DNA of 64,000 nucleotides from Gluconacetobacter azotocaptans. GTDB taxonomy: Bacteria > Pseudomonadota > Alphaproteobacteria > Acetobacterales > Acetobacteraceae. The stretch is from positions 1 to 64,000 of the forward strand of contig NZ_JABEQF010000006.1 of NCBI RefSeq assembly GCF_014174355.1, written 5' to 3'. Shown here piece by piece: positions 14,789 through 63,009 of this stretch (positions are counted from its first letter, which is position 1; each line of letters starts with the position of its first letter). Position numbers and translations under genes: made by a program. The notes below the pieces were generated by a model. The model was not told the origin of the DNA. It did no database searches and saw nothing but the letters and a program-made list of their open reading frames with translations.

Positions 14789-15570
14789 GTGTCTGATCGG
14801 ACGGGCGCGCATCGTCAGAGGGTAGGAAGAAGATCGGTTTTCCGGAAATCCCGCTCTTTGAACAGAAGAGGGACCTGCCGGTCCTTCGGCGGGGTAACGA
14901 CCCTTGCCGAACCGGATGAAGGCCTCCCGCGCCTGACCCGGGTCAGGCGGACCAGGCGATTTCGGGGACGGACCGGCCTTGGTCCTTGAGATACGTCAGG
15001 CGCCCACAGGCGCATGATGTCGCGCGTCGTCTCGGGGCCTTCCGGCACGTGCCGCCGATCGGCGCAGGCGGTATGCGCGCCATGGTGCCTTTGTGCTTAC
15101 GGCACATCAGGACACGTTCGCCTGACGCGATGATCGGCGGCAGAAGACGCACCGATGCCGATGCCTCCGGCGATCGGCAGCGTAGTCACTCTCGCATACC
15201 GGTCGGGTCGGCGCATCGTGGGCTCCGGGCTTCGGGCTCCGGACTGCTGGTTGCGGTGTTGTGGCGTCTGTCTTCACACGCGAGCAGCGCTAAAAGCGGA
15301 CATTCTGCTTTCCCGCCATTGCTGCCTGTCGGCTCTCGCCTCATGTGGGACATACAAGCACTGCATGAACGCACGCAAAGCAGACATGAGTATTTCGTTA
15401 ATTTTCGGTACATTCACCCTACCATCCTCCTGAAAGCGGGATTACGCGTAGAAATTACGCTGTCGGGTATCAGATGCCCTCGGCAACGGCATTCAATTGT
15501 TATGTTCGAGCCAAAAAGATAGGCAGTCTCTGCGTTGCACCTTATTACAAGCCTAGCAAGAAGCATTTCG
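14789..15570. other. Gene-free stretch between GH32 and the EcsC-like gene
   Basis: About 780 bases without a convincing gene. The frames open here have poor codon use and no family resemblance. GC content falls from left to right across it, so it probably contains the left border of the AT-richer island; no direct repeat, tRNA or integrase is visible. Confidence 0.5.
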
Positions 15571-16317
15571 ATGGACTATGTTTCATTGTATTTCATGAAC
15601 TGGAGATTAGACTTGAACGACGCGCCTTCCCGAGATCAGGGGTCCTTGCTTCTGACTGCTGTCCAAGCGGTTGCAATCAGTCCAGAAAAAGCCAAAAAAA
15701 TTGTGGCTCAATACCAGAAGGCTGCACACAAGACGAACCCAAAGGCGAGTGAAACGGAGATCGAAGAAATCATCTCCAATAAGATCGTCGACAAATATTC
15801 CAAGTATGCTTCGCTCAGCGGTGGCGTAGCCGCGCTACCTGGTATTGTCCCCGGCGTTGGGACGGTCGCAGCTATGGTTGGGGGGGGAATGGCAGACACA
15901 ACAGCTTGCATGAAGATACAGATCGACATGACGATGCTGTTGGCAACAAACTTTGGTTACGACCTGAACGACCATGACGCCATGTACATGACTACGCTTA
16001 TTGCTGTCAGCGGCGGGTTAGAGAAAATGGGAGTAGGCATCGGTGTTCCGATAGCGTCGAAAGCTGGCGTCAAGATGCTTAAGCAATATCTAAAAGGTGC
16101 GACGCTTACGATTGTAAAGGAATTATTCAAGCGCTTTGGTCTTACTTTTACTCGTAAAGCACTTGAAAAAAGCATACCTTTCGGCGTCGGAGTTGTCGCT
16201 GGTTCGGGCCTCAACTACGCCCTTACACAATATGTCGGTCATCAAGCGATAAAATGCTTCACCATTGAACGACAGATGGAAGAAGAGGCTGATAATAACG
16301 GCAAAGTGGATAGCTAA
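15571..16317 (+). CDS. EcsC-family membrane-associated protein
   Basis: About 248 residues; ATG 15571 or 15595 are both possible starts. The core matches the EcsC family: ISNKIVDKYSKYASLSGGVAALPGIVPGVGTVAAMVGGGMADTTACMKIQIDMTMLLATNFGYDLND, followed by a second amphipathic/hydrophobic half SIPFGVGVVAGSGLNYALTQYVGHQAI. EcsC-like proteins associate with membranes and their function is poorly known; several sit in defence or stress contexts. Base composition is clearly lower in GC than the flanks, consistent with acquisition, and a ParA-type gene follows on the opposite strand. Confidence 0.75.
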   Translation: MDYVSLYFMNWRLDLNDAPSRDQGSLLLTAVQAVAISPEKAKKIVAQYQKAAHKTNPKASETEIEEIISNKIVDKYSKYASLSGGVAALPGIVPGVGTVAAMVGGGMADTTACMKIQIDMTMLLATNFGYDLNDHDAMYMTTLIAVSGGLEKMGVGIGVPIASKAGVKMLKQYLKGATLTIVKELFKRFGLTFTRKALEKSIPFGVGVVAGSGLNYALTQYVGHQAIKCFTIERQMEEEADNNGKVDS

Positions 16318-16637
16318 AGAGTAGAGTTTATTATGGCACGGTCAAGAGGTATTCTCTGCTTCTGATGCCCCCGCCATTAACGCTGATTTTTTTATTTTCC
16401 GTCTGCCACCGCCTGTCTTCTTATCGAAGACGAAGAAGACAGGCGGCTTTCGCCTTTATGTCGATCGTCCGGTCGATGTGCGCAGCGTTCCAACAGAGGA
16501 CGTGGGTCTAAGGCACCCTCCCTAGTGGAGGGCCATAACTACTCACGGGGCTTTTGGGGCAACAATAACTGGAAAGTGCCCCCAGCGTCGCTTGATCCCG
16601 TTGCCGGCGAGACCAAGCGACCAAATTATGCCAAGGG
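16318..16637. other. Gene-free stretch between convergent EcsC-like and ParA genes
   Basis: Holds the strong hairpin at 16409-16446 and a weaker CGCTTG...CAAGCG stem near 16588-16619. No other feature is seen. Confidence 0.5.
16409..16446. terminator. Bidirectional-type hairpin between convergent genes
   Basis: CCGCCTGTCTTCTT and AAGAAGACAGGCGG form a perfect 14-base stem around a 10-base loop. A T-rich run lies just upstream on the + strand (GATTTTTTTATTTT), which would read as an A-to-U tail for minus-strand transcription of the ParA gene only if transcription passes leftwards. Confidence 0.7.
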
Positions 16638-17711
16638 TTAAAGTTTTGATACAAAATCCTCAAGGTGATCCAACGACTCTTTGTAATTAGCCTTTGGAAT
16701 ATTCACTTCGGTGCCGTCTGGCATCGTATATTTAGTCTTCTTAGGTAGTTTGTGTAATGGGATGCCAAGGCTCGACGATACTTTTCCCGAGGTATGAAAA
16801 TCCTTCACGTTTGACATAAATATATCTTCCCACTCCTTATTGCTTGTCGGAATGCTTGAGAGATGTGCAAAAACAGACGGATCGGCTTGATATTGTTGCC
16901 ACGCGAAGCGAGATATTTCGTTCTTGATCGACGCATACGCATTAGCCACGCCCATATTGGCTGTAAAGTTGTTGAAGGGTAGCTCGAATATTTTTGGCAA
17001 AGGCAAATTGAAGTTTTGAATCTGCTTGTTGAAGGTCAATACCTTGTCTGCATAGTTCTTGGCGGCTGACGACGGGTATTTCCCGTAGAGCAGCATCATA
17101 ATGCCTTTTATCCCTTCCAGTGAGCTATAATCCGCCATCACGGGTATAACGATATGGTCCGATGAGACTAGCGCCATTTGAGTGTAAACCGAAAAACTTG
17201 GGTTACAGTCAATAAAGACGGTCATCTCCTCAAAGTCGGTCCTCGCCAGTTCAGCCTCGCACAGTCGCCGGATAGCGGTGACGTACTCCGCCCAAGCATT
17301 GATGTTGCCAGGGTTCATCGTCGCAAAATTGAGTGCCAGAGATAGGGACTCAAGAAAGGAATCACCAGCTATTAAGAAAAGATTAGCGGCGATTTCCTTG
17401 TTATGCCTTGAAACGTGCGTCATGTAGCTGGACGGAATGCTCGTGAAGCCTGAGTTGCCGCTCAACACCCAGTCCATGAATCCCACAATGTTTCTACGCG
17501 TGGCCTGCGACTGGAGTCGTTGGTTCTCAGCATATCCCTTCTTTCCACCGCCTAAGAAGAACTGCGAGATGTTGGCTTGAGGACAGAGATCAATCACCAA
17601 TATTAGCTTGTCTGGGTTCTGCTCAGCATATAGGCAAGCCGCATTCTGGCACAGAGTAGTTTTGCCCACTCCGCCCTTGTTATTGTAAAAGGCGTATATT
17701 GCGGTCGACAT
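16638..17711 (-). CDS. ParA/MinD-type P-loop ATPase
   Basis: A 357-residue protein with the deviant Walker A NNKGGVGKTTL (residues 10-20), VIDLCPQANIS as the A' box and VFIDCNPSFSVYTQMAL as Walker B. This is the AAA_31/ParA class that uses ATP-dependent dimerisation. ParA proteins normally act with a ParB and centromere, but none is present, and the C-terminal third (AWQQYQADPSVFAHLSSIPTSNKEWEDIFMSNVKDFHTSGK...) is an extension beyond the ATPase. The start at 17711 is chosen because it begins just before the first strand. The AT-richer composition matches the EcsC-like gene opposite. An orphan ParA could serve positioning, plasmid-remnant or defence roles. Confidence 0.85.
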   Translation of the reverse strand: MSTAIYAFYNNKGGVGKTTLCQNAACLYAEQNPDKLILVIDLCPQANISQFFLGGGKKGYAENQRLQSQATRRNIVGFMDWVLSGNSGFTSIPSSYMTHVSRHNKEIAANLFLIAGDSFLESLSLALNFATMNPGNINAWAEYVTAIRRLCEAELARTDFEEMTVFIDCNPSFSVYTQMALVSSDHIVIPVMADYSSLEGIKGIMMLLYGKYPSSAAKNYADKVLTFNKQIQNFNLPLPKIFELPFNNFTANMGVANAYASIKNEISRFAWQQYQADPSVFAHLSSIPTSNKEWEDIFMSNVKDFHTSGKVSSSLGIPLHKLPKKTKYTMPDGTEVNIPKANYKESLDHLEDFVSKL

Positions 17712-18029
17712 CGTCCATCCCACGTTCTGAAGGCTGATAGCATGGCGAACTGGGGCTGCGGTCGCAACCCCGCGATCTTCGGCTGTCCCTTTTTTATCAA
17801 GGGCCGACCGTCAGCGTTATCCGTTGCTGCGCCACGATGGAAACCAAAACAAATGGCGGGCTTCGGGAGCGGGAGATAAGTTGACGATCGACACAAAAGT
17901 GACCGCATAATAGGCATGAACGCCGGTAGCACGAATGACGGCTTTTCTAACCGCTACAATCAGAAGCCGACATCCCGCTCTCCCCGCAGACCAGACGTTC
18001 GGATGCAACGAGGCTACGTCTGCCAAGAG
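17712..18029. other. Gene-free stretch between ParA and LysR genes
   Basis: About 318 bases with mixed composition that marks the right edge of the AT-richer island. It should contain the promoter of the ParA gene. No repeat, tRNA or coherent reading frame is seen. Confidence 0.45.
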
Positions 18030-41922: not shown

Positions 41923-43209
41923 TCAAGCCGTCCTGGCTGCTGTCCGTGCGGCCTGCTTCTCTTCCTCGGTCCAGATTTTGCGTTCGCGCTTCTTCTGCGG
42001 CTTGATTTCCTTGGCCGGCGCACCGCCCAGCACGGGTGGGCGCATGGTCGAGTTCCGCGCCGCTTCCGAATGCCACTGATGATCGTCCTGAACGATCAGG
42101 GCGCGACCGATTTCGCGCTCGACATCACGCAGCCAGGCGCGCTGCTCGGCATCGCAGAGCGTGATGGCGAAGCCGTTGCGCCCGGCGCGGCCGGTGCGGC
42201 CTATGCGATGGACATAGCTTTCCGGCAGGCTCGGCAGGTCATGGTTGAAAACATGCGTCACCGTATCGACGTCGATGCCGCGCGCTGCGATATCCGTCGC
42301 CACCAGAACCTGCGCGGTTCCGGAGCGGAAGGCGTCCAGCGCGCGCTCCCGCTGGCCCTGCGATTTGTTGCCGTGCAGGGCCTCGGCCGTGATGCCCGCC
42401 TCGGTGATGAAGGCACAGACTTCGTTGGCAATGTTCTTCTGCAGCGTGAAGACCACGGCCTGGCCGATCCCCGGCGTCTGCAGCAACGCCAGGAGCGCCG
42501 CCTTCTTGTCGGCCGCATCGACGAACATGACCGACTGTTCGATCCGGTCGACGGTGGTCGAGGGCGGGGCGATTTCGACCTTCGCCGGATCGCGCAGGAG
42601 GCTCTCGGCCAGCGCGGTGATGGATTTCGGCATCGTTGCCGAAAACAGCAATGTATGCCGGTCCTTCGGGAGCGTCGCGACGATACGCTCGATCGGCTTG
42701 GCGAAGCCCATGTCGAGCATCTGGTCGGCCTCATCCAGCACCAGCGCCTCGAGCTGCGACAGGTCGCACAGGCCCTGGTTGATCAGGTCCAGCAACCGCC
42801 CCGGCGCGGCCACGATGATGTCCACACCATTTTTGAGCGCGTTCACCTGATGGAGCTGACTGACGCCGCCGAAAATCGTTGTCACGCTGGGCTGCAGATG
42901 GCGACCGAAGCTATTGAAGCCGTCGGCGATCTGAGAGACCAGTTCGCGCGTGGGCGCGAGGACCAGGACGCGGGCGCCGCCCTTGGGCGCCGGGCGGGGG
43001 GACGTGGCAAGGCGATGCAGCAGCGGCAGTGCGAAAGCGGCGGTCTTGCCTGTGCCGGTCTGGGCCATGCCCAGCAGGTCGCGGCCTTCCAGCAGCATCG
43101 GGATCGATTGGGCCTGGATGGGGGTAGGGGTGGCGTACCCTTCCTCGGCCAGTGCGCCCAGCAGGGTCGGCGCCAGGGAGAGATCGGCGAACGTCATGGA
43201 CATGGTCAA
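41923..43209 (-). CDS. DEAD-box RNA helicase (RhlE type)
   Basis: A 428-residue ATP-dependent RNA helicase. All core motifs are seen: F in MTFADLSL, Q motif TPTPIQAQSIP, AQTGTGKT (I), PTRELVSQI (Ia), GG, APGRLLDLI (Ib), DEAD (II), SATMP (III), VLVATDIAARGIDV (V), HRIGRTGRAGR (VI). The C-terminal tail is short and basic with KEIKPQKKRERKIWTEEEKQAARTAARTA, as in RhlE-like helicases of alphaproteobacteria that aid ribosome or mRNA remodelling in the cold. It is monocistronic. Confidence 0.94.
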   Translation of the reverse strand: MTMSMTFADLSLAPTLLGALAEEGYATPTPIQAQSIPMLLEGRDLLGMAQTGTGKTAAFALPLLHRLATSPRPAPKGGARVLVLAPTRELVSQIADGFNSFGRHLQPSVTTIFGGVSQLHQVNALKNGVDIIVAAPGRLLDLINQGLCDLSQLEALVLDEADQMLDMGFAKPIERIVATLPKDRHTLLFSATMPKSITALAESLLRDPAKVEIAPPSTTVDRIEQSVMFVDAADKKAALLALLQTPGIGQAVVFTLQKNIANEVCAFITEAGITAEALHGNKSQGQRERALDAFRSGTAQVLVATDIAARGIDVDTVTHVFNHDLPSLPESYVHRIGRTGRAGRNGFAITLCDAEQRAWLRDVEREIGRALIVQDDHQWHSEAARNSTMRPPVLGGAPAKEIKPQKKRERKIWTEEEKQAARTAARTA

Positions 43210-43354
43210 GCGGCGCCTCCGGCGCTCAGTAAGGCTGCGCCTGTTCGGGCTTCGCTGGTTCGGAACGCGGAGTTTTACGGGCGATGCTGCATCGCGTCAA
43301 CGCGGAGAGGAGGGGCGCGCGGTGGTTTTTCCTCCACCCGCGCCCGTCGCAGAC

Positions 43355-43445
43355 CCTGCCCGCCGAACCGCCGCGCCCACCGTCGGCGCAGTGTCATCGA
43401 ACGCATGTTCGGCCGTATGAAGGACTGGCAGCGGACTGCCATATG
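43355..43445 (+). mobile_element. IS5-family transposase, C-terminal fragment
   Basis: The + strand reads RRRSVIERMFGRMKDWQRTA, the (N/S)xIERxFxRxKxWRRxA signature at the end of the DDE domain of IS5-family transposases. The expected continuation (RYDK...) is broken at once, and no inverted repeats or upstream transposase sequence remain. The surrounding 43210-43800 spacer turns sharply AT-rich right after this fragment, marking the border of the next island. Confidence 0.7.
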
Positions 43446-43806
43446 CCACGGCCGGGGGGTGGAATATCGGATTCGCCAACAAAGCATGAATAGAAGACGA
43501 AATTAAATATCCACTGATATTTCATCAACGCTTAATTGATAATTTTTTGTATTTTCATATTAGCTATAATGATACTGTAAATAATGTAATGAGCCTACAT
43601 GAATCAGACTGCAACATCGCTGCGTCATAGCGGAAATGGTATGCAAATAATCCTCCAAGGAAATGCCAAATTGAGTGGAGGCTGGTGAACTTGTGTCATT
43701 ACCCATGGTCGTCGCCAGCAGCAATGTTGCAAATCGCGGATAAAATAGGTTAAAGACACTTGATTCAACGAAACGGAACACCTTAGCCAAATTGAATGGG
43801 ATTTTG

Positions 43807-44787
43807 ATGGCAACGGACGATGAGGATCAGTATCTTAGCTATACTGCGAGCTTGATAACTCAGGGCAAACACCGCTTCTATACGCTTACAATCCCGTCAG
43901 ACGTGCTCGCTCGAACCTGCTTCGTAATTGATCGCGACGAAGATCCAGTAGAAGGTTTTCAGCGCCTTCTAAACAAAGACCGAGCGCAAGAAATTGCGGA
44001 TTACATCGATGCTGGATTTGGTACGATCCCGACATCGATAGTTTTGTCAGCTCAGGACATTGCTGAGTTCACGTATAGCAGTGCCAAGCGGACAGTCCGC
44101 TTCCGATATAATCCGAAAGCATTCCTCATCCTGGACGGTCAGCATAGAATATATGGATTTCATTTAGCCAAGTCAGAATTACGTGTTCCCGTAGTTATTT
44201 ACAATGATCTGGCTCGAAGGGATGAGTCTCGGCTTTTTATAGATATAAATACGAAACAACGAGCCGTTCCAAATGAACTCCTCCTAGATATAAGGAAAAT
44301 TGCCGACTACCGGAACGATGTTGAAAGTCGTCTTGGAGATATCTTTGACCTATTTGCTTCTGAACCCACTAGTCCACTACTTGGGTCGATGTCAGCTTCT
44401 AGGCGGCGGAAAGATTATATCTCTCGTGTGACGTTCAATTCGGCGACGAAACCTATCTTATCTCTTTTTGGTGATGCAGATATTCAAGATATTTACCAAA
44501 TACTTTCTGCTTATCTGACATCTTTTTTGAGTACGGCGAAACAAAGTAAATTGGAAATTAATATCACTGCGCCGATAGTGTTTAGGGCGTTAATGTCTAT
44601 TTTCCCAGAAATCGCGCAACGAGTACGTGACAAGCATGGCGTCGTATATACGACGGACAATTTTGCCGAAGTTATCGCCTCTATGTTGAAGAACGTGAAA
44701 CACTCGTCAGTTAAAAATGTTGGAAACAGTGTAACTTCTTACGCAAAAGTTTTTACTGACGCTATGAAAACAAAGTCGATCTTCTAA
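43807..44787 (+). CDS. DGQHR-domain protein (DndB-like)
   Basis: A 326-residue protein with the DGQHR motif: AFLILDGQHRIYGFHLAKSELRVPVVIYNDLARRDESRLFIDINTKQRAVPNELLLDIRKI (motif residues 110-114). This domain occurs in DndB, the regulator of DNA phosphorothioation, and in related uncharacterised proteins of defence islands. The C-terminal half is alpha-helical and without known motifs. Genes dndACDE are not present. ATG 43807 or TTG 43792 are possible starts. The next gene starts one base after its stop. The sequence is strikingly AT-rich against the host background. Confidence 0.82.
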   Translation: MATDDEDQYLSYTASLITQGKHRFYTLTIPSDVLARTCFVIDRDEDPVEGFQRLLNKDRAQEIADYIDAGFGTIPTSIVLSAQDIAEFTYSSAKRTVRFRYNPKAFLILDGQHRIYGFHLAKSELRVPVVIYNDLARRDESRLFIDINTKQRAVPNELLLDIRKIADYRNDVESRLGDIFDLFASEPTSPLLGSMSASRRRKDYISRVTFNSATKPILSLFGDADIQDIYQILSAYLTSFLSTAKQSKLEINITAPIVFRALMSIFPEIAQRVRDKHGVVYTTDNFAEVIASMLKNVKHSSVKNVGNSVTSYAKVFTDAMKTKSIF

Positions 44788-44788
44788 T

Positions 44789-45745
44789 ATGACGAGCGTT
44801 GTTGAGGCATGTCGACTGATGTGGGTTCCTGGAATCGACAGACTAGACGGAAAGCCTAGCTATAACATGCACGGCTGGCTAACCACGGAAAACTTCGCAC
44901 CAACAATCACTGACGGAATTATTGAACTTCAAGGAGTGGATCCTAAAATTCTACTACAGGCATTTGCTGGAGATCTGAATAGAGTTGCTTTGGCCGGGAG
45001 CGAAAGTCTTAATAATATTGTTAATATTCCGACAATACCAAAATCACTTGGCTGGCCTTATGTAAAACTTTATTACAGTGCCTTCTTTTATGCCCATGCC
45101 ATATTACGCGCTTGGGGCCGCTCCCCTAGCTATCTTCGAACATCAGATCTAATAAGGGTAAAACAAGTCTTCCAATTATATACTCTCTCCCCTCCCTTTA
45201 AACTTCAGACTGGACAATATCTCTTATCCGCCGGCTCTAATGCCGATTCGCTCTTTATTGCCCCTATGAATAGTGGAGGCGGGACACACGAAGCTATTTG
45301 GCGTATTTTTCAAACCGAATTGAGTGACTTGCAAAGTCGTGTTATCGCTGCACCTTACACATCGTCTGATAAGGGCGCCATAAGTGGAGCCCTGAATTCG
45401 GCTGTTAATCTATTAACAAACCATGGAGCAAATACGGCTTGGCCGTCAGCGATGCGAAACGATATCCAATATCGCCAGACAGAGGGGCTTTGGTTTCCGT
45501 ATACCGGACGTAAAAAGACTGTTGATTTTGCTCGCCATGTTACAGATATTTTGTGCGACACCAAGAAAACCGAGGACGTTCTTGCGTGCCAAAATGATAA
45601 TTTGAGCCGGTTCCAAGCAGCCTGCTCGTTCGTGGTCGTTCTGGCGCGTCAGATGCTTTCAGACTTGTCGCAGGTGGGGGGCGCCAAAAGCTTCCTGAAA
45701 TTTGGGCAGTCCGACTTCGAGCGGAGCTTGACGACGAATACCTAA
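44789..45745 (+). CDS. Uncharacterised partner of the DGQHR protein
   Basis: A 318-residue protein that I do not recognise. It is soluble, alpha/beta in character, with FAPTITDGIIELQGVDPKILLQAFAGDLNRVALAG near the N-terminus, an aromatic stretch SLGWPYVKLYYSAFFYAHAILRAWGRSPSYLR near residues 90-121, and FSRYQ-free C-terminal helices ending FLKFGQSDFERSL. YVKLYYSAFFYAHAILR resembles the helix seen in HEPN/YaaC-type proteins, but the RxxxxH motif is not clear. It is separated by one base from the DGQHR gene and shares its AT-rich composition, so the two act together in all likelihood. Confidence 0.65.
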   Translation: MTSVVEACRLMWVPGIDRLDGKPSYNMHGWLTTENFAPTITDGIIELQGVDPKILLQAFAGDLNRVALAGSESLNNIVNIPTIPKSLGWPYVKLYYSAFFYAHAILRAWGRSPSYLRTSDLIRVKQVFQLYTLSPPFKLQTGQYLLSAGSNADSLFIAPMNSGGGTHEAIWRIFQTELSDLQSRVIAAPYTSSDKGAISGALNSAVNLLTNHGANTAWPSAMRNDIQYRQTEGLWFPYTGRKKTVDFARHVTDILCDTKKTEDVLACQNDNLSRFQAACSFVVVLARQMLSDLSQVGGAKSFLKFGQSDFERSLTTNT

Positions 45746-45760
45746 GAATATCCGTTGTGA

Positions 45761-45870
45761 TCAAGCGGATTTTGATGTCCAGAGGCGATCGTCCCGGAGG
45801 AGGGCGTTGGTGAGCACGATGAGCTTTCGCATGATCGCAGTGATGGCGATCTTGGCGTGTTTTCTCTTAT
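45761..45870 (-). mobile_element. IS110-family transposase, C-terminal fragment (minus strand)
   Basis: The minus strand reads KRKHAKIAITAIMRKLIVLTNALLRDDRLWTSKSA and then a stop at 45761, the usual C-terminus of IS110-family transposases ('K.A..AVMRKL..L.NALLRD.R.W'). Nothing upstream of this fragment is recognisable. Confidence 0.7.
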
Positions 45871-45959
45871 CTCTGAGGCATGCGAATATCGGATTCTCCG
45901 AGGGTTTGTCGCCCCCCGGGAGACCGGCGGGGCAGGGCGGCTTGGTGGTCCAGGCGGAC

Positions 45960-46060
45960 ACGCCGTTCATCACCGCCGTCATGCGAAAGGATGTCGTTCT
46001 TGCCAAAGTCCTTTCCCTGTCCGGGATGGTTGATAGCGGACGGCCGCTATTCGCGGATCG
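45960..46060 (+). mobile_element. IS110-like C-terminal fragment (plus strand), degenerate
   Basis: The + strand reads FITAVMRKDVVLAKVLSL, a degraded version of the same MRKL-L-N-ALL end, facing away from the minus-strand copy 90 bases to the left. The two relics form an imperfect inverted pair. Confidence 0.45.
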
Positions 46061-47030
46061 TATCCTCGCGGCGGGTGGCGAACTGAAGCCGATAGGCCGT
46101 TGGCGTCACCCCGGTGACCGCACGGAAATGCTGCCGCAGATTGGCGGCCGTGCCGAAGCCCGCCCGGAGCGCGATCGCCTCGATCGACAGGGTCGTCTCT
46201 TCCAGCAGTTCTTCCGCAAGCCTCAGGCGCTGGCGCAGCAGCCACGTACCGGGCGCCAGTCCGGTCGCGTCGCGGATGTGGCGATGCAGGCTTCTGACGC
46301 TGACATGCATCACGGCCGCCATGCGCTCCATCGTCCATCGCTCGGCCAGGCGGCCGCGCAGGGCGTCGAGCAGGCGGGAGAGCCGGTCGCCCGCGGGCGG
46401 AGGCACCGCGCGTTCGATGAACTGCGACTGGCCGCCGCCGCGGTGCGCCGCCACCACCAGCCGCCGCGCCACCAGATTTGCGGCTTTGGTGCCGAAATCC
46501 TTGCGGACGACATGGATGCATAAATCGAGACCTGCGGCGCTGCCGGCCGATGTCAGGATGTTGTCGCTTTCGACATACAACGCGCCCGCATCGACGCTGA
46601 TCGCCGGATAGGCGGCCGCGAGAGCGGCGGCATGGTGCCAATGGGTCGTCGCCCGTTTCCCGTCCAGGAGGCCGGCCTGCGCCAGCACGAACGCGCCCCC
46701 GCAGATCGAGACGATGCGGCGGCCGGACCGGTTCGCCGCGCGCAAGGCGTGCAGCAGGGGCGCGGGCGCGGCTTCGGCGGGGCCGCGCCAGCCGGGGATC
46801 ACGATCGTATCGGCCGTCTGGAGCAAGGAGAGATCGCCATCGGCGGTGATGGTCATGCCGCCCTGCCCGTGCAGGGGGCCGGGTTCGGCGGCGACGATCG
46901 CGCAGCGATACCAGCCCGCACCCATTTCAGGGCGCGACAGGCCGAAAACTTCAAAGGCGCAGCCGAACTCGAACAGGCACAGACGGTCGTAGACCAGAAG
47001 GGCGACGAGGGGCGCGGTCGTCTTTGACAT
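46047..47030 (-). CDS. GlxA-family AraC-type regulator (DJ-1/PfpI plus HTH)
   Basis: A 327-residue regulator. Residues ~8-180 form a DJ-1/PfpI-like domain (LVYDRLCLFEFGCAFEVFGL..., DTIVIPGWRG, RIVSICGGAFVLAQAGLLDGKRATTHWHH with Cys in SICGGAF). Residues ~220-320 form an AraC HTH (WTMERMAAVMHVSVRSLHRHIRDATGLAPGTWLLRQRLRLAEELLEETTLSIEAIALRAGFGTAANLRQHFRAVTGVTPTAYRL). FtrA/GlxA-type proteins activate adjacent catabolic genes. It diverges from a GST gene with a perfect TGTCCGATCGGACA palindrome between them. Confidence 0.9.
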   Translation of the reverse strand: MSKTTAPLVALLVYDRLCLFEFGCAFEVFGLSRPEMGAGWYRCAIVAAEPGPLHGQGGMTITADGDLSLLQTADTIVIPGWRGPAEAAPAPLLHALRAANRSGRRIVSICGGAFVLAQAGLLDGKRATTHWHHAAALAAAYPAISVDAGALYVESDNILTSAGSAAGLDLCIHVVRKDFGTKAANLVARRLVVAAHRGGGQSQFIERAVPPPAGDRLSRLLDALRGRLAERWTMERMAAVMHVSVRSLHRHIRDATGLAPGTWLLRQRLRLAEELLEETTLSIEAIALRAGFGTAANLRQHFRAVTGVTPTAYRLQFATRREDTIRE

Positions 47031-59157: not shown

Positions 59158-60276
59158 ATGACACCAAACGCGCGCATTGCCATTCTCGGCGCCGGCCCCG
59201 GCGGATTGATGCTGGCACGTCTGCTGCAGTGCCGTGGGGTTTCGGCCAGCATTTTCGAGCGCGAGGCGCATCCCGACGAACGGCCCCAGGGCGGGTCGCT
59301 GGACCTGCATGCCCGGACCGGGCAGCGCGCGATGCGCAAGGCCGGGCTGGACGCCGCGTTCCTGGCCGCCGCGCGCCCCGAGGACCAGGACGACCGGCTG
59401 TACGATCCGCAGGGGACGTTGCTGCTGGAGCGCGACGGGTCGGGCGACGACCGGCCGGAAATCGATCGTACTGCGCTGCGGCGTATCCTACTGGCGTCCG
59501 TGGCGCCGGGGACGGTGCGGTGGGGACAGGGCATCGAGACGGTCGCGCCGTCACAGGGCGGGGGCTATGACGTCACCCATCCGGGAGGCGTCGAGACATT
59601 CGACATCGTGGTCGGCGCCGACGGCGCCTGGTCGCGCGCGCGCCGGCTGCTGTCGGCCCAGCGGCCGGTCTACGAAGGCGTGGCCCTGGTCGATTACAGC
59701 GTCGAGGAAAGCGCGCATCCGTCGGTCGGCGCGCTGGTCGGGCGCGGCAAGATGATGGCGGTGGGCGAGAACCGCGCGCTGATCGGGCAGCGGAACGGGG
59801 ACGGCCATATCCGGCTGTATGCGCTGCGCCGGATGGCGGAAGGGGACGCGCGCGGGCTGATGTCCGCCTCGGCCGATGCCGTGCGCGCCGCCACGCTGGC
59901 GGCCTTTTCGGGTTGGGCGCCGCAGTTGCGGCATCTGATCGACGCCGGCACGTTTTCCGCCGTCCGGCCGCTGTACGCGCTGCCGGTCGGGTATCGCTGG
60001 GAAAGCCGTGCCGGCGTCACGCTGCTGGGCGACGCCGCGCATGTGATGGCCCCGTTCGGTGGAAAGGGCGTGAACCTGGCGCTGGCGGATGCGGCGGACC
60101 TTGCGGATGCGCTGTGTTCCGGCGAGGGGTGGGCGGCCGTGACGCGGTACGAGGCCCTGATGGCCGAGCGTGCCGCCCCGGCGGCGGCCGGCGCCGCCGC
60201 CGGGTTGAACGCGGTGATCTCGTCCGACGGGCTGGCGCATGCGCTGGCGCATTATCAGGCGCGGACGCCGCAATAA
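59158..60276 (+). CDS. FAD-dependent monooxygenase (TetX-like)
   Basis: A 372-residue group A flavin monooxygenase. IAILGAGPGGLMLARLLQCRGVSASIFERE is the FAD Rossmann motif (GxGxxG), GGSLDLHARTGQRAMRKAG and PEIDRTALRRILL resemble TetX and related aromatic hydroxylases, DIVVGADGAWSRAR is the DG motif, and LLGDAAHVMAPFGGKGVNLALADAADLA the GD motif. Substrate is unknown; the divergent MarR and operators point to induction by a toxic or aromatic compound. GGAGCGACC precedes the ATG. Confidence 0.9.
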   Translation: MTPNARIAILGAGPGGLMLARLLQCRGVSASIFEREAHPDERPQGGSLDLHARTGQRAMRKAGLDAAFLAAARPEDQDDRLYDPQGTLLLERDGSGDDRPEIDRTALRRILLASVAPGTVRWGQGIETVAPSQGGGYDVTHPGGVETFDIVVGADGAWSRARRLLSAQRPVYEGVALVDYSVEESAHPSVGALVGRGKMMAVGENRALIGQRNGDGHIRLYALRRMAEGDARGLMSASADAVRAATLAAFSGWAPQLRHLIDAGTFSAVRPLYALPVGYRWESRAGVTLLGDAAHVMAPFGGKGVNLALADAADLADALCSGEGWAAVTRYEALMAERAAPAAAGAAAGLNAVISSDGLAHALAHYQARTPQ

Positions 60277-60377
60277 TCCGGTGCGGTGTCGAGGATTTGT
60301 TGGGCGGAAGCGGCTATTCCGCGCCCCTCCCTGTCAACGGTAGAGCATCTTCCCCGGGCCGCAGGACCACAATGCCG

Positions 60378-61230
60378 CTACGCCGTAAGGGCGGGATAGT
60401 CGTGATCGATTTTAAAATGATTGACAATTTGGCGCAGAGACGTGGCTTCTCGCTCCAGATTATGAACCGCGGCAGTCGTTTCTTCAACCATGGCCGCGTT
60501 TTTCTGGGTTATGACATCCATCTCATTCATGGCCGAATTTATTTCGTTCAATCCTCTGGACTGCTCTTGAGATGAGATCGAAACTTCTTCGATAAGATCG
60601 CCAAGTTCACCGATGTATTTTGTTGTTTCCTTGATGCAGCTTCCTGTATCGTTGACGAACTTTACGCCTTTATTAATTTCCTCGTGCGACTGAGAAATAA
60701 GCTCTTTAATGCCATACAGGCCGGCATTAAAGTCTTTCCTTATGGATTCGTAATCGGCGGCAAACGGTTTATCCAGACTGACCTCCAGATCTCCGCGTTT
60801 TATTGCTTCCAATGCCTTGCTGAAGGAACTTCTTACGAATTCGACGTCGCTGTCCGATTCTTTCTGCTTTTCCTGGTTGGGAAATGTTTCCGACGATCTT
60901 CCCACACGACGGTGATCTGATCTGCGCCTTCGATATGAACCAGGAATATCGTTGCGAAAACCGGAAGAATGGTGCCGTCCAGGCGGACATGCATCCAATC
61001 GAATTGAACGGGACGGCGCGTTTTCAACAGGTCACTGATAATATTTTGCGAGGCTTGACCCGATTTTCTACCATCGGGCTGAAATTCGGGTGAGAATTTT
61101 TCGACACTTAACCCGATAACCTGATCTCTGCTTCCTCCGACCAGATCAAGCATGGCTTTGTTGCAGTCGGAAATTTTTCCATTTTTCAAATAAAAGCACG
61201 CGGTAAGGGTATACTCAAATATTGACTCGG
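60378..61230 (-). pseudogene. PAS-methyl-accepting chemotaxis protein, frameshifted and 5'-truncated
   Basis: One frame (to about 60895) gives a PAS domain: EYTLTACFYLKNGKISDCNKAMLDLVGGSRDQVIGLSVEKFSPEFQPDG...FDWMHVRLDGTILPVFATIFLVHIEGADQITVVWED. The next frame (stop 60378) continues with HAMP-like and MCP signalling-like sequence: SDSDVEFVRSSFSKALEAIKRGDLEVSLDKPF...ISSQEQSRGLNEINSAMNEMDVITQKNAAMVEETTAAVHNLEREATSLRQIVNHFK. One base has been lost or gained near 60895. Upstream there is no ATG before an in-frame stop at about 61255, only TTG 61189, and no membrane domain. The MCP hairpin is also too short. It is a relic, AT-richer than its surroundings. Confidence 0.75.
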
Positions 61231-61476
61231 CAAGAATTGACGAACTGTTCTGTCGTCTGAATTTTTACGGTCGCTTTTTTTTGAGAACCACACGTGACCG
61301 CGCCCTTTTTTGAAGGCCAGCTTTTTAAAAGAAAGTTCCCCCCGCATCCCTTAAATTTTTTAATAATTACATGCACAGAGGCGGGTGGGCGGGCCGACCA
61401 CACCGCCGGGACGCCGGCATGGCTCGGGGCCGCAGCCACAGCGGGTCGTGCCAGCGTCCGATCCCGCAATGGGTCC

Positions 61477-62022
61477 TTATTGAAGCTGTGCTTCGTAAGT
61501 GGCGAGCATGGTTCGGGTGTCGCTGGCGAGTTTGACGAGGTCTGCATTCTTCGAGCCGGCAATCTCGTTTTCAAAGACAGGTTTCATTTTGGCCTGGTCA
61601 TGTGAAAGATACCGGATGTGGCTCCGGTCGAACGCTGCGCCATGAAGGCGTTGCATCCGGTCGATCACCTTCTGGTCTTCGCTGGACGGCTTGGTCGTCA
61701 GGGTGATGGCGTGTGCCGTCACGACCTTCGCCAGCTTGTCCTGGTTTCCTTTCATGTCCTTTACAATGGTCGTGCCAAGGGTTGCGACATCGCTGCGGGC
61801 CGCATGGGTTTCGGCAATGTTGGCCAGCGCGATCTGCGTGATGTCCATTTCGTTGAGTTTTTGCACAAAATCGGCGTCGGCGGTCGTAAGGGGGGCGGCC
61901 TTTGCCACGGCCGGCAATGGCGGCGGGGACGGCTGACCGGGGGCTACGCAGGCACCGAGTGCCAGAAGGCCCGCCATAAGAGGAGGCAGGGCAAGCGACT
62001 TGTGACGAGACAGGAGCGACAT
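61477..62022 (-). CDS. DUF4142 lipoprotein
   Basis: A 181-residue lipoprotein: signal peptide ending LLALGAC (lipobox, residue 25). The mature part is a helical DUF4142 domain: TTADADFVQKLNEMDITQIALANIAETHAARSDVATLGTTIVKDMKGNQDKLAKVVTAHAITL...RLHGAAFDRSHIRYLSHDQAKMKPVFENEIAGSKNADLVKLASDTRTMLATYEAQL. This family has a ferritin-like four-helix fold, is often induced by stress and its function is not known. GGGAGAAT precedes the start on the minus strand. Confidence 0.88.
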   Translation of the reverse strand: MSLLSRHKSLALPPLMAGLLALGACVAPGQPSPPPLPAVAKAAPLTTADADFVQKLNEMDITQIALANIAETHAARSDVATLGTTIVKDMKGNQDKLAKVVTAHAITLTTKPSSEDQKVIDRMQRLHGAAFDRSHIRYLSHDQAKMKPVFENEIAGSKNADLVKLASDTRTMLATYEAQLQ

Positions 62023-62409
62023 GATCGGCAGATTCTCCCTGGATTTCCGATGCAGTTTTGAGCGACGGCGGCGTGATGCCGGACGGAGTTTCGAAGAAGC
62101 CGTGGCTGTGGCCGGCTTTTCCGGTCTTCGGATCCGCAGCGGACGCCCTCCTTGCTGACGATATGTCCCATGATGATAGTGTGGGGCGAGAAAGGCAATG
62201 GCGAAGTAAAGATGTCTTCCTTTGGCCAGATGTTCGGATCGAATCGTACATAATATGAACACAATTCCCGTAACATCGAGTTTCATTGGGAAAGAGACAT
62301 TTTGCGCCTCGTCCGGCTCTTGCATCGACCGGAAAGAGCGCACTAGGTTTGTCGAAGGGGTGCGCCGTGCCTCGTGTGTTCCGATTGAGGTGTGGGGATA
62401 ATCCTGGAA
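62023..62409. other. Intergenic region between divergent lipoprotein genes
   Basis: 387 bases without a coherent reading frame; it must hold the two divergent promoters. No clear operator or repeat was found. Confidence 0.45.
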
Positions 62410-63009
62410 ATGAACTGTCGCATTCTGTGTCTGCTCGTTGTTTCCTCGCTTTCTCTGGGTCTGGGTGGGTGCGGATATTTTGATTCACGGGCTGCTCACA
62501 AGGCACAGATCACCATGATCGGAATGACGTCCTACGATCTTCAGGCGTGTGCCGGGATTCCATCCGCCACCAAGCAGCTCAATGACACGACCCAGGTCTT
62601 CGTCTATACCGGAACGCATGCGCAGCCGAACTATGGAGGCTCGACGCTCATTCCGGTGGGCGACATCATAACGACGCTTTCGCAGTTCAGCGGTGGGGGC
62701 GGGACGACCTGCACGGCTGTGATCCGCCTGGACCACGACCGGGTATCGGACGTGCATTATACGGGCGATAATGACGAAATGGTCGGAACGGACGGGATCT
62801 GTTCCATTATCACCCGTGGGTGCGCCCGCCAGCCTGAAAGCACGATGAAGAGGTCTGCCGGAGGCCTGTTTGGTCCGGTTTCGGCGTTCCACCCGCCCGT
62901 TACACCGAATCAGTCGACATCGAATACATATTCCTCGCAATCCGGAGGGGTCGTTCTCAATCCCGACAAAAAATCTCCGGACGCGGTCATTATCCCCCGG
63001 CCCCAGTGA
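62410..63009 (+). CDS. Hypothetical lipoprotein
   Basis: A 199-residue protein with a lipoprotein signal (MNCRILCLLVVSSLSLGLGGC; lipobox LGGC). KAQITMIGMTSYDLQACAGIPSATKQLNDTTQVFVYTG resembles the SmpA/OmlA-like 'GMs..dV....G.P' pattern found in BamE-type lipoproteins and in small outer-membrane lipoproteins of acetic acid bacteria. Four cysteines after the lipobox (QAC, TTC, GIC, GC) may form disulfides. The C-terminus is Pro/Ser/Asn-rich and likely disordered. Function unknown. ATG 62410 is preferred over 62392 because it gives a compact signal. Confidence 0.75.
   Translation: MNCRILCLLVVSSLSLGLGGCGYFDSRAAHKAQITMIGMTSYDLQACAGIPSATKQLNDTTQVFVYTGTHAQPNYGGSTLIPVGDIITTLSQFSGGGGTTCTAVIRLDHDRVSDVHYTGDNDEMVGTDGICSIITRGCARQPESTMKRSAGGLFGPVSAFHPPVTPNQSTSNTYSSQSGGVVLNPDKKSPDAVIIPRPQ

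Follow-up and report, generated by a model that had tools for sequence, protein, structure and literature searches.

The 64,000-nucleotide stretch of Gluconacetobacter azotocaptans DNA analyzed here (contig NZ_JABEQF010000006.1, positions 1 to 64,000; "the window") carries a cassette that is probably a horizontally moved two-gene defense system. It consists of two intact forward-strand genes, one for a DGQHR-domain protein (43807..44787, 326 amino acids from the ATG at 43807, with a TTG at 43792 as another possible start) and one for a partner protein of an unnamed family (44789..45745, 318 amino acids). The original prediction had described the two genes as one base apart and alien in base composition, and both descriptions are accurate: the open reading frames (ORFs) are separated by exactly one base, 44788, and the G+C content of the pair is 0.448 vs. 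0.661 in the 8-kilobase (kb) flanks; no non-overlapping window stretch of equal length (10-base steps) is as A+T-rich. A search for the pair in other genomes, proposed as a check, showed it to be a recurring stand-alone module that is horizontally mobile, a conclusion supported by computation: 14 intact pairs, the window's included, were found, some on plasmids or chromosomes, others on viral contigs or in an inovirus, always in the same gene order and with no more than 12 bp between the genes.

In the 13 pairs that were measured, the intergenic gap ranged from -4 to 12 base pairs (bp) and the G+C content was always lower than in the flanks (by 0.04 or less in four of them). In the eight closest relatives measured, the DGQHR protein is 44-55% identical to the window copy and the partner just 18-25%. 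Queries with the partner reached 10 loci besides the window; one (L009) begins at the partner and is unjudgeable, and in 7 of the 9 others (L003, L006, L007, L008, L016, L017 and L018) a DGQHR gene lies directly upstream. In one exception (L004) the partner gene stands alone next to genes identified by eye as transposition genes; the other (L005) is a short partner match whose closest annotated upstream gene encodes a TPR protein. Six more intact pairs came from queries with DGQHR: L010, L012, L106, and those of the inovirus PfAC19 (L049), a Providencia plasmid (L050) and a Burkholderia glumae plasmid (L051). Imperfect loci also occur, with an 82-amino-acid partner remnant (L011), a 182-amino-acid partner (L081, the same locus as L035), no partner at all (L014 and L082), or a sequence that stops inside the DGQHR gene (L013). 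Twenty of the 35 plasmid records with a DGQHR match also match the partner; these come from Acinetobacter, Providencia (15) and Burkholderia (4), and many are near-copies.

The partner is rare, occurring in 4 of 398 genomes of the phylum (Pseudomonadota), 1 of 385 of the class and 1 of 147 relatives, its own genome counted each time; this sparse distribution led us to reject a housekeeping gene pair. DGQHR-type proteins were present in 24 of the 398 sampled Pseudomonadota genomes, with 19 exceeding the cut-off. Searching the E. coli genomes for the inovirus pair at the DNA level gave nothing, and the phage collection had no match to the window's partner. Confinement of the partner to complete dnd clusters, which would have spoken against a separate module, was not seen either: none was noticed beside the other pairs, whose genomes were not searched for dnd.

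DGQHR-type proteins are usually discussed by way of DndB, and the window protein is indeed DndB-like, as had been proposed: it scores 170.4 bits against the DGQHR domain TIGR03187 (cut-off 58.85) and 51.3 bits against Pfam DndB PF14072 (cut-off 29.1). The DGQHR motif occupies residues 110-114, with D110-R114 invariant in A3 and A6. By its predicted fold the protein belongs to the ParB/Srx superfamily, the model placing a ParB/Srx-fold N-domain at residues ~16-153, followed by a helical C-domain. It falls well outside the equivalog families, with 26.6 bits for DndB TIGR03233 (cut-off 328) and 43.6 bits for DpdB NF041060 (cut-off 300); PADLOC returned weak DpdB and DndB matches only. GmrSD_N/DUF262 PF03235 and PD-T4-2_A were unmatched at E<=1, and the Pfam scan found no DUF1524/HNH domain. 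The claim that dnd modification genes are absent holds for DndC and DndD, whose profiles had no match in the whole genome; that genome-wide search did not extend to DndA, DndE or the rest of the dnd genes. A standard phosphorothioation locus, already doubted in the original prediction, is rejected on the DndB score below cut-off and the lack of DndC and DndD.

The partner had been called unrecognised, and so it proved: the window copy, the only one compared with NCBIfam and PADLOC, had no match at E<=1 in these or in Pfam. The 15 partner members gave no known Pfam family (just two single weak matches) and no match at E<=0.1 to the Pfam HEPN families, PF18735 included; against PDB sequences the best E was 0.18. 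In PHROGs, one unnamed family was hit by two members (best E 2.5e-4); three further families, each hit by a single member, gave E ~0.05. Foldseek found nothing at E<=0.001 among PDB structures and viral models, a result with which a known fold is still compatible. By hhalign the partner was unlinked to the RiboL-PSP, Swt1-like and AbiV sets; because these HEPN sets also missed one another (a control within RiboL-PSP-HEPN gave a probability of 99.9), the comparison is uninformative. Nine residues are invariant among the partners: W89, Y95, Y96, H167, W171, S220, R223, N224 and Y228. The classical HEPN motif Rx4-6H is not present in the window copy, which has Q230 (a histidine in 8 of the 15 partners). 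The AbiV-type alternative, a conserved histidine upstream of the arginine, is present: H167 is found in 15/15 partners and would sit between predicted helices 88-108 and 218-229, the latter carrying R223/N224 (it is our own assignment that pairs these helices with HEPN helices 2 and 3). The partner is HEPN-like by inference only. Separately, a DGQQR gene was adjacent at 4 of 20 RiboL-PSP-HEPN loci.

The chromosomal site of the cassette was compared with that of sister species. Its left anchor (41923..43209, reverse strand), a gene that we take to be DEAD-box helicase-like from its motifs and not from a family call, is conserved in 11 of 13 sister species with 88-94% DNA identity, and synteny with these 11 is lost between 43304 and 43450. 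Both flanks were common to no sister species within the stretches compared, so that the left border alone was mapped, by synteny loss, and it is by the left anchor that sites are called the same. Site genes were scanned in G004, G005, G009 and G012, and clear defense genes follow the anchor in 2 of the 11 species (G004 and G005). The first carries (L067, 910-3481) a GmrSD_N/DUF262 gene (PADLOC NsnA 9.9e-73, PD-T4-2_A 2.7e-45) followed by a RiboL-PSP-HEPN gene that a transposase-like ORF splits in two (Pfam 4.1e-6, slightly under cut-off, and 2.9e-10). Since this is the DUF262 and HEPN combination of PD-T4-2, a sister species has the nearest known analogue of our pair at the same site. The second carries (L073, 791-2811) DarT (Pfam 3.7e-16) and DarG (PADLOC 1.5e-55). 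Two overlapping genes in G012 (L068, 4154-5613), one with a sub-threshold NACHT match, are possible unrecognised defense genes. The site genes in G009 are of no recognised kind, those in G002, G003, G007 and G008 were read as non-defense, and no A+T-rich insert was seen in G001, G006 and G010. The site may be a small defense hotspot in the genus, and could yield more defense systems.

Some of the other pairs also have defense genes nearby. On Acinetobacter plasmid pTR3_4, a methyltransferase and a NotI-type endonuclease lie directly upstream, in one gene run with the DGQHR protein and partner; in Ramlibacter (L008, 2130-5311), the PADLOC candidates PDC-M61A and PDC-M61B are directly upstream, and the pair here may belong to that PDC-M61 candidate system as an unlisted component. 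A methyltransferase and a GmrSD_N protein are found within ~6.5 kb at L010, and an annotated AbiH gene ~4.5 kb from the pair on the Providencia plasmid. No defense genes were seen by eye near L078, L079 and L080, and two L079 neighbors had no PADLOC match. The pair of inovirus PfAC19 (L049, 3465-5444) adjoins a repressor gene in a record that states no function, and that of L012 follows a terminase-like gene (by eye). Large single proteins (L052, 5287-7596, and L033, 814-3099) have an N-terminus that looks nuclease-like by eye, a DGQHR/DndB domain, and RxxxxH in the C-terminus; the former, the 769-amino-acid protein of pNL1, has a DndB match and a sub-threshold Swt1-HEPN match. The original proposal of a defense module is supported in part, by stand-alone recurrence, the lack of DndC/DndD, a non-housekeeping spread, and defense genes at the site and near some relatives, the last being observed cases rather than a formal enrichment test.

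Computation supports the module and its mobility, the predicted ParB/Srx fold and the defense genes at the sister-species site; beyond these, we infer a defense function, a trigger, a division of roles and an RNase activity. The DGQHR protein would be a ParB/Srx-fold nucleotide-binding switch, probably hydrolysing nucleoside triphosphates (NTPs), that detects invasion by some sign, the likeliest being a state of the invading DNA; the partner would be a toxic effector kept off until a trigger releases it, its likeliest identity being a divergent HEPN-type RNase that relies on H167 together with R223/N224. Should the pair be a defense module, we put the chance of such an RNase at about a half. 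The roles are assigned in this order by analogy with DUF262 proteins such as SspE: in the parts of the literature covered, NTP hydrolysis in the DGQxR pocket of SspE-type proteins is described as triggering a coupled nuclease (PMC10952713). The rapid divergence of the partner could equally fit a surface that contacts phage proteins, an alternative to the effector role. We also entertain, with low confidence, a reading in which the DGQHR protein acts as a ParB-like clamp gated by nucleotide. It would load onto invading DNA or mark it, and its state would license a fast-evolving effector from a protein family not yet described, perhaps a HEPN clade of its own in which the catalytic histidine is displaced; a chromosome-segregation switch would then have been rebuilt as a two-gene immune sensor on phages, plasmids and chromosomes.

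The idea has precedent, since ParB or DUF262 proteins with HEPN partners are known from PD-T4-2, which combines DUF262 with HEPN (PMC10952713), and from a 2013 HEPN survey that noted ParB-type proteins joined to HEPN in operons or fusions (PMC3710099), in the portions of these sources seen. PD-T4-2 is validated against T4; its deletion from the native E. coli strain is described as strongly increasing T4 plaquing (PMC9519451, seen in part). Our cassette resembles PD-T4-2 in having two genes, a ParB/Srx-superfamily protein first and a presumed RNase second, but its first gene is of the DGQHR/DndB type rather than DUF262 and its second has no PF18735 match and, in this copy, no classical Rx4-6H; we propose, by analogy, that it works like PD-T4-2 without being a member of it. 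It shares the ParB/Srx-type fold and DGQHR domain with DndB and DpdB, but differs from them in its scores far under the family cut-offs, a genome without DndC/DndD, and its own partner gene. GmrSD, BrxU and SspE (DUF262 plus DUF1524) likewise have a ParB/Srx fold with a DGQxR nucleotide pocket and a coupled nuclease, according to the passages covered (PMC4619093, PMC10952713), and SspE and BrxU are in the VIA list; here, in contrast, no DUF1524/HNH was found, and the partner is separate with no fold assigned. ParB-HEPN fusions such as Saro_3948, as listed in Table 1 of PMC3710099, combine a DGQHR/DndB domain with a HEPN-type C-terminus (compare L052), but each is one fused protein whose N-terminus looks nuclease-like by eye, and the HEPN family, with RxxxxH, is a different one. 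DndB-type proteins have also been proposed as nucleotide-degrading effectors, in the part seen of PMC10853773. The gene pair is not described in the PMC literature passages covered, which included no preprints, supplements or subscription papers. Within that literature, the ParB plus HEPN kind is already known and this DGQHR subgroup with its unnamed partner does not appear; in PADLOC the DGQHR gene drew only weak DpdB and DndB matches, and the partner gene drew none.

Several other explanations were considered. The pair could be a toxin-antitoxin or addiction module that keeps a mobile element in place, with the partner as toxin and the DGQHR protein as antitoxin: the genes overlap or nearly so, the presumed antitoxin comes first, and the pair is carried by plasmids both small and large and by an inovirus. 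Usual antitoxins, however, are unlike the DGQHR protein, which is large, conserved and enzyme-like in predicted fold, and solo chromosomal copies lie in core-looking surroundings; we consider this explanation rather unlikely, and it overlaps the preferred one because toxin-antitoxin pairs such as DarTG also give defense. A quite improbable reading is that the two proteins regulate or back up a restriction-modification (R-M) system, as the pTR3_4 gene run and other DGQHR proteins with a nuclease-like N-terminus or beside methyltransferase-like genes (by eye) might suggest; an adjacent R-M operon was seen at just 1 of the 14 pairs, pairs without one nearby do occur, and an obligate R-M accessory was rejected as a general account.

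Service to the mobile element itself (superinfection exclusion, replication or partition) rather than general host defense is less probable still. It would suit the repressor gene beside the PfAC19 pair, the terminase-like gene before the L012 pair and the predicted ParB-like fold, but not the solo chromosomal copies, and no ParA gene stands beside the window pair among the ORFs examined. Despite the common DGQHR/DndB domain, a regulatory role like that of DndB or DpdB, acting on a DNA modification encoded at another place in the genome, is very improbable given the family scores and the lack of DndC/DndD (dpd genes were not searched); the dnd version is largely refuted already.

Returning to the candidate defense cassette, one DGQHR subgroup has a dedicated partner, so that transfer of just two genes to a laboratory host would allow its role to be tested. 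Should the pair defend, the DGQHR branch would, like the DUF262 branch, be an interchangeable sensor or switch, and a new effector family would be named, with its nine invariant residues as mutation targets.

The cassette does lie between IS5 and IS110 remnants, as originally described: an IS5-family transposase remnant at ~43354..43455 (72.5% identity to annotated IS5 genes) and an IS110-family remnant at ~45742..45868 (81.5-85.8% identity to annotated IS110 transposase genes of Komagataeibacter and Kozakia plasmids), neither assigned a strand. The IS5 debris is older than the cassette and part of the prior site, since two sister species keep DNA synteny through it to 43450, near its end. A repeat search also found a 16-bp direct repeat bracketing the cassette (43462..43477 and 45884..45899, forward strand, 15/16 identical), the genome's only two exact matches to the pattern, with 0.04 expected in the shuffled window (2 mismatches allowed). 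Because it was chosen after inspecting a list of 8 repeat families it is suggestive only; it may mark the cassette insertion, the left copy being a possible border. No RNA elements reached Rfam gathering scores in 43200-46100, no tRNA was found in the window, and promoters and terminators were about as numerous as in shuffled sequences.

Elsewhere in the window, a second A+T-rich islet (15001-18000, G+C 0.47-0.55) carries genes, named by eye, for a ParA-like ATPase (16638-17723, reverse strand) and a small protein (15535-16317, forward strand). G+C also falls to ~0.55 in 60001-63000, where a chemoreceptor-tail-like fragment (60378-60998) and a DUF4142-like protein (61477-62343) were recognised by eye, both on the reverse strand.
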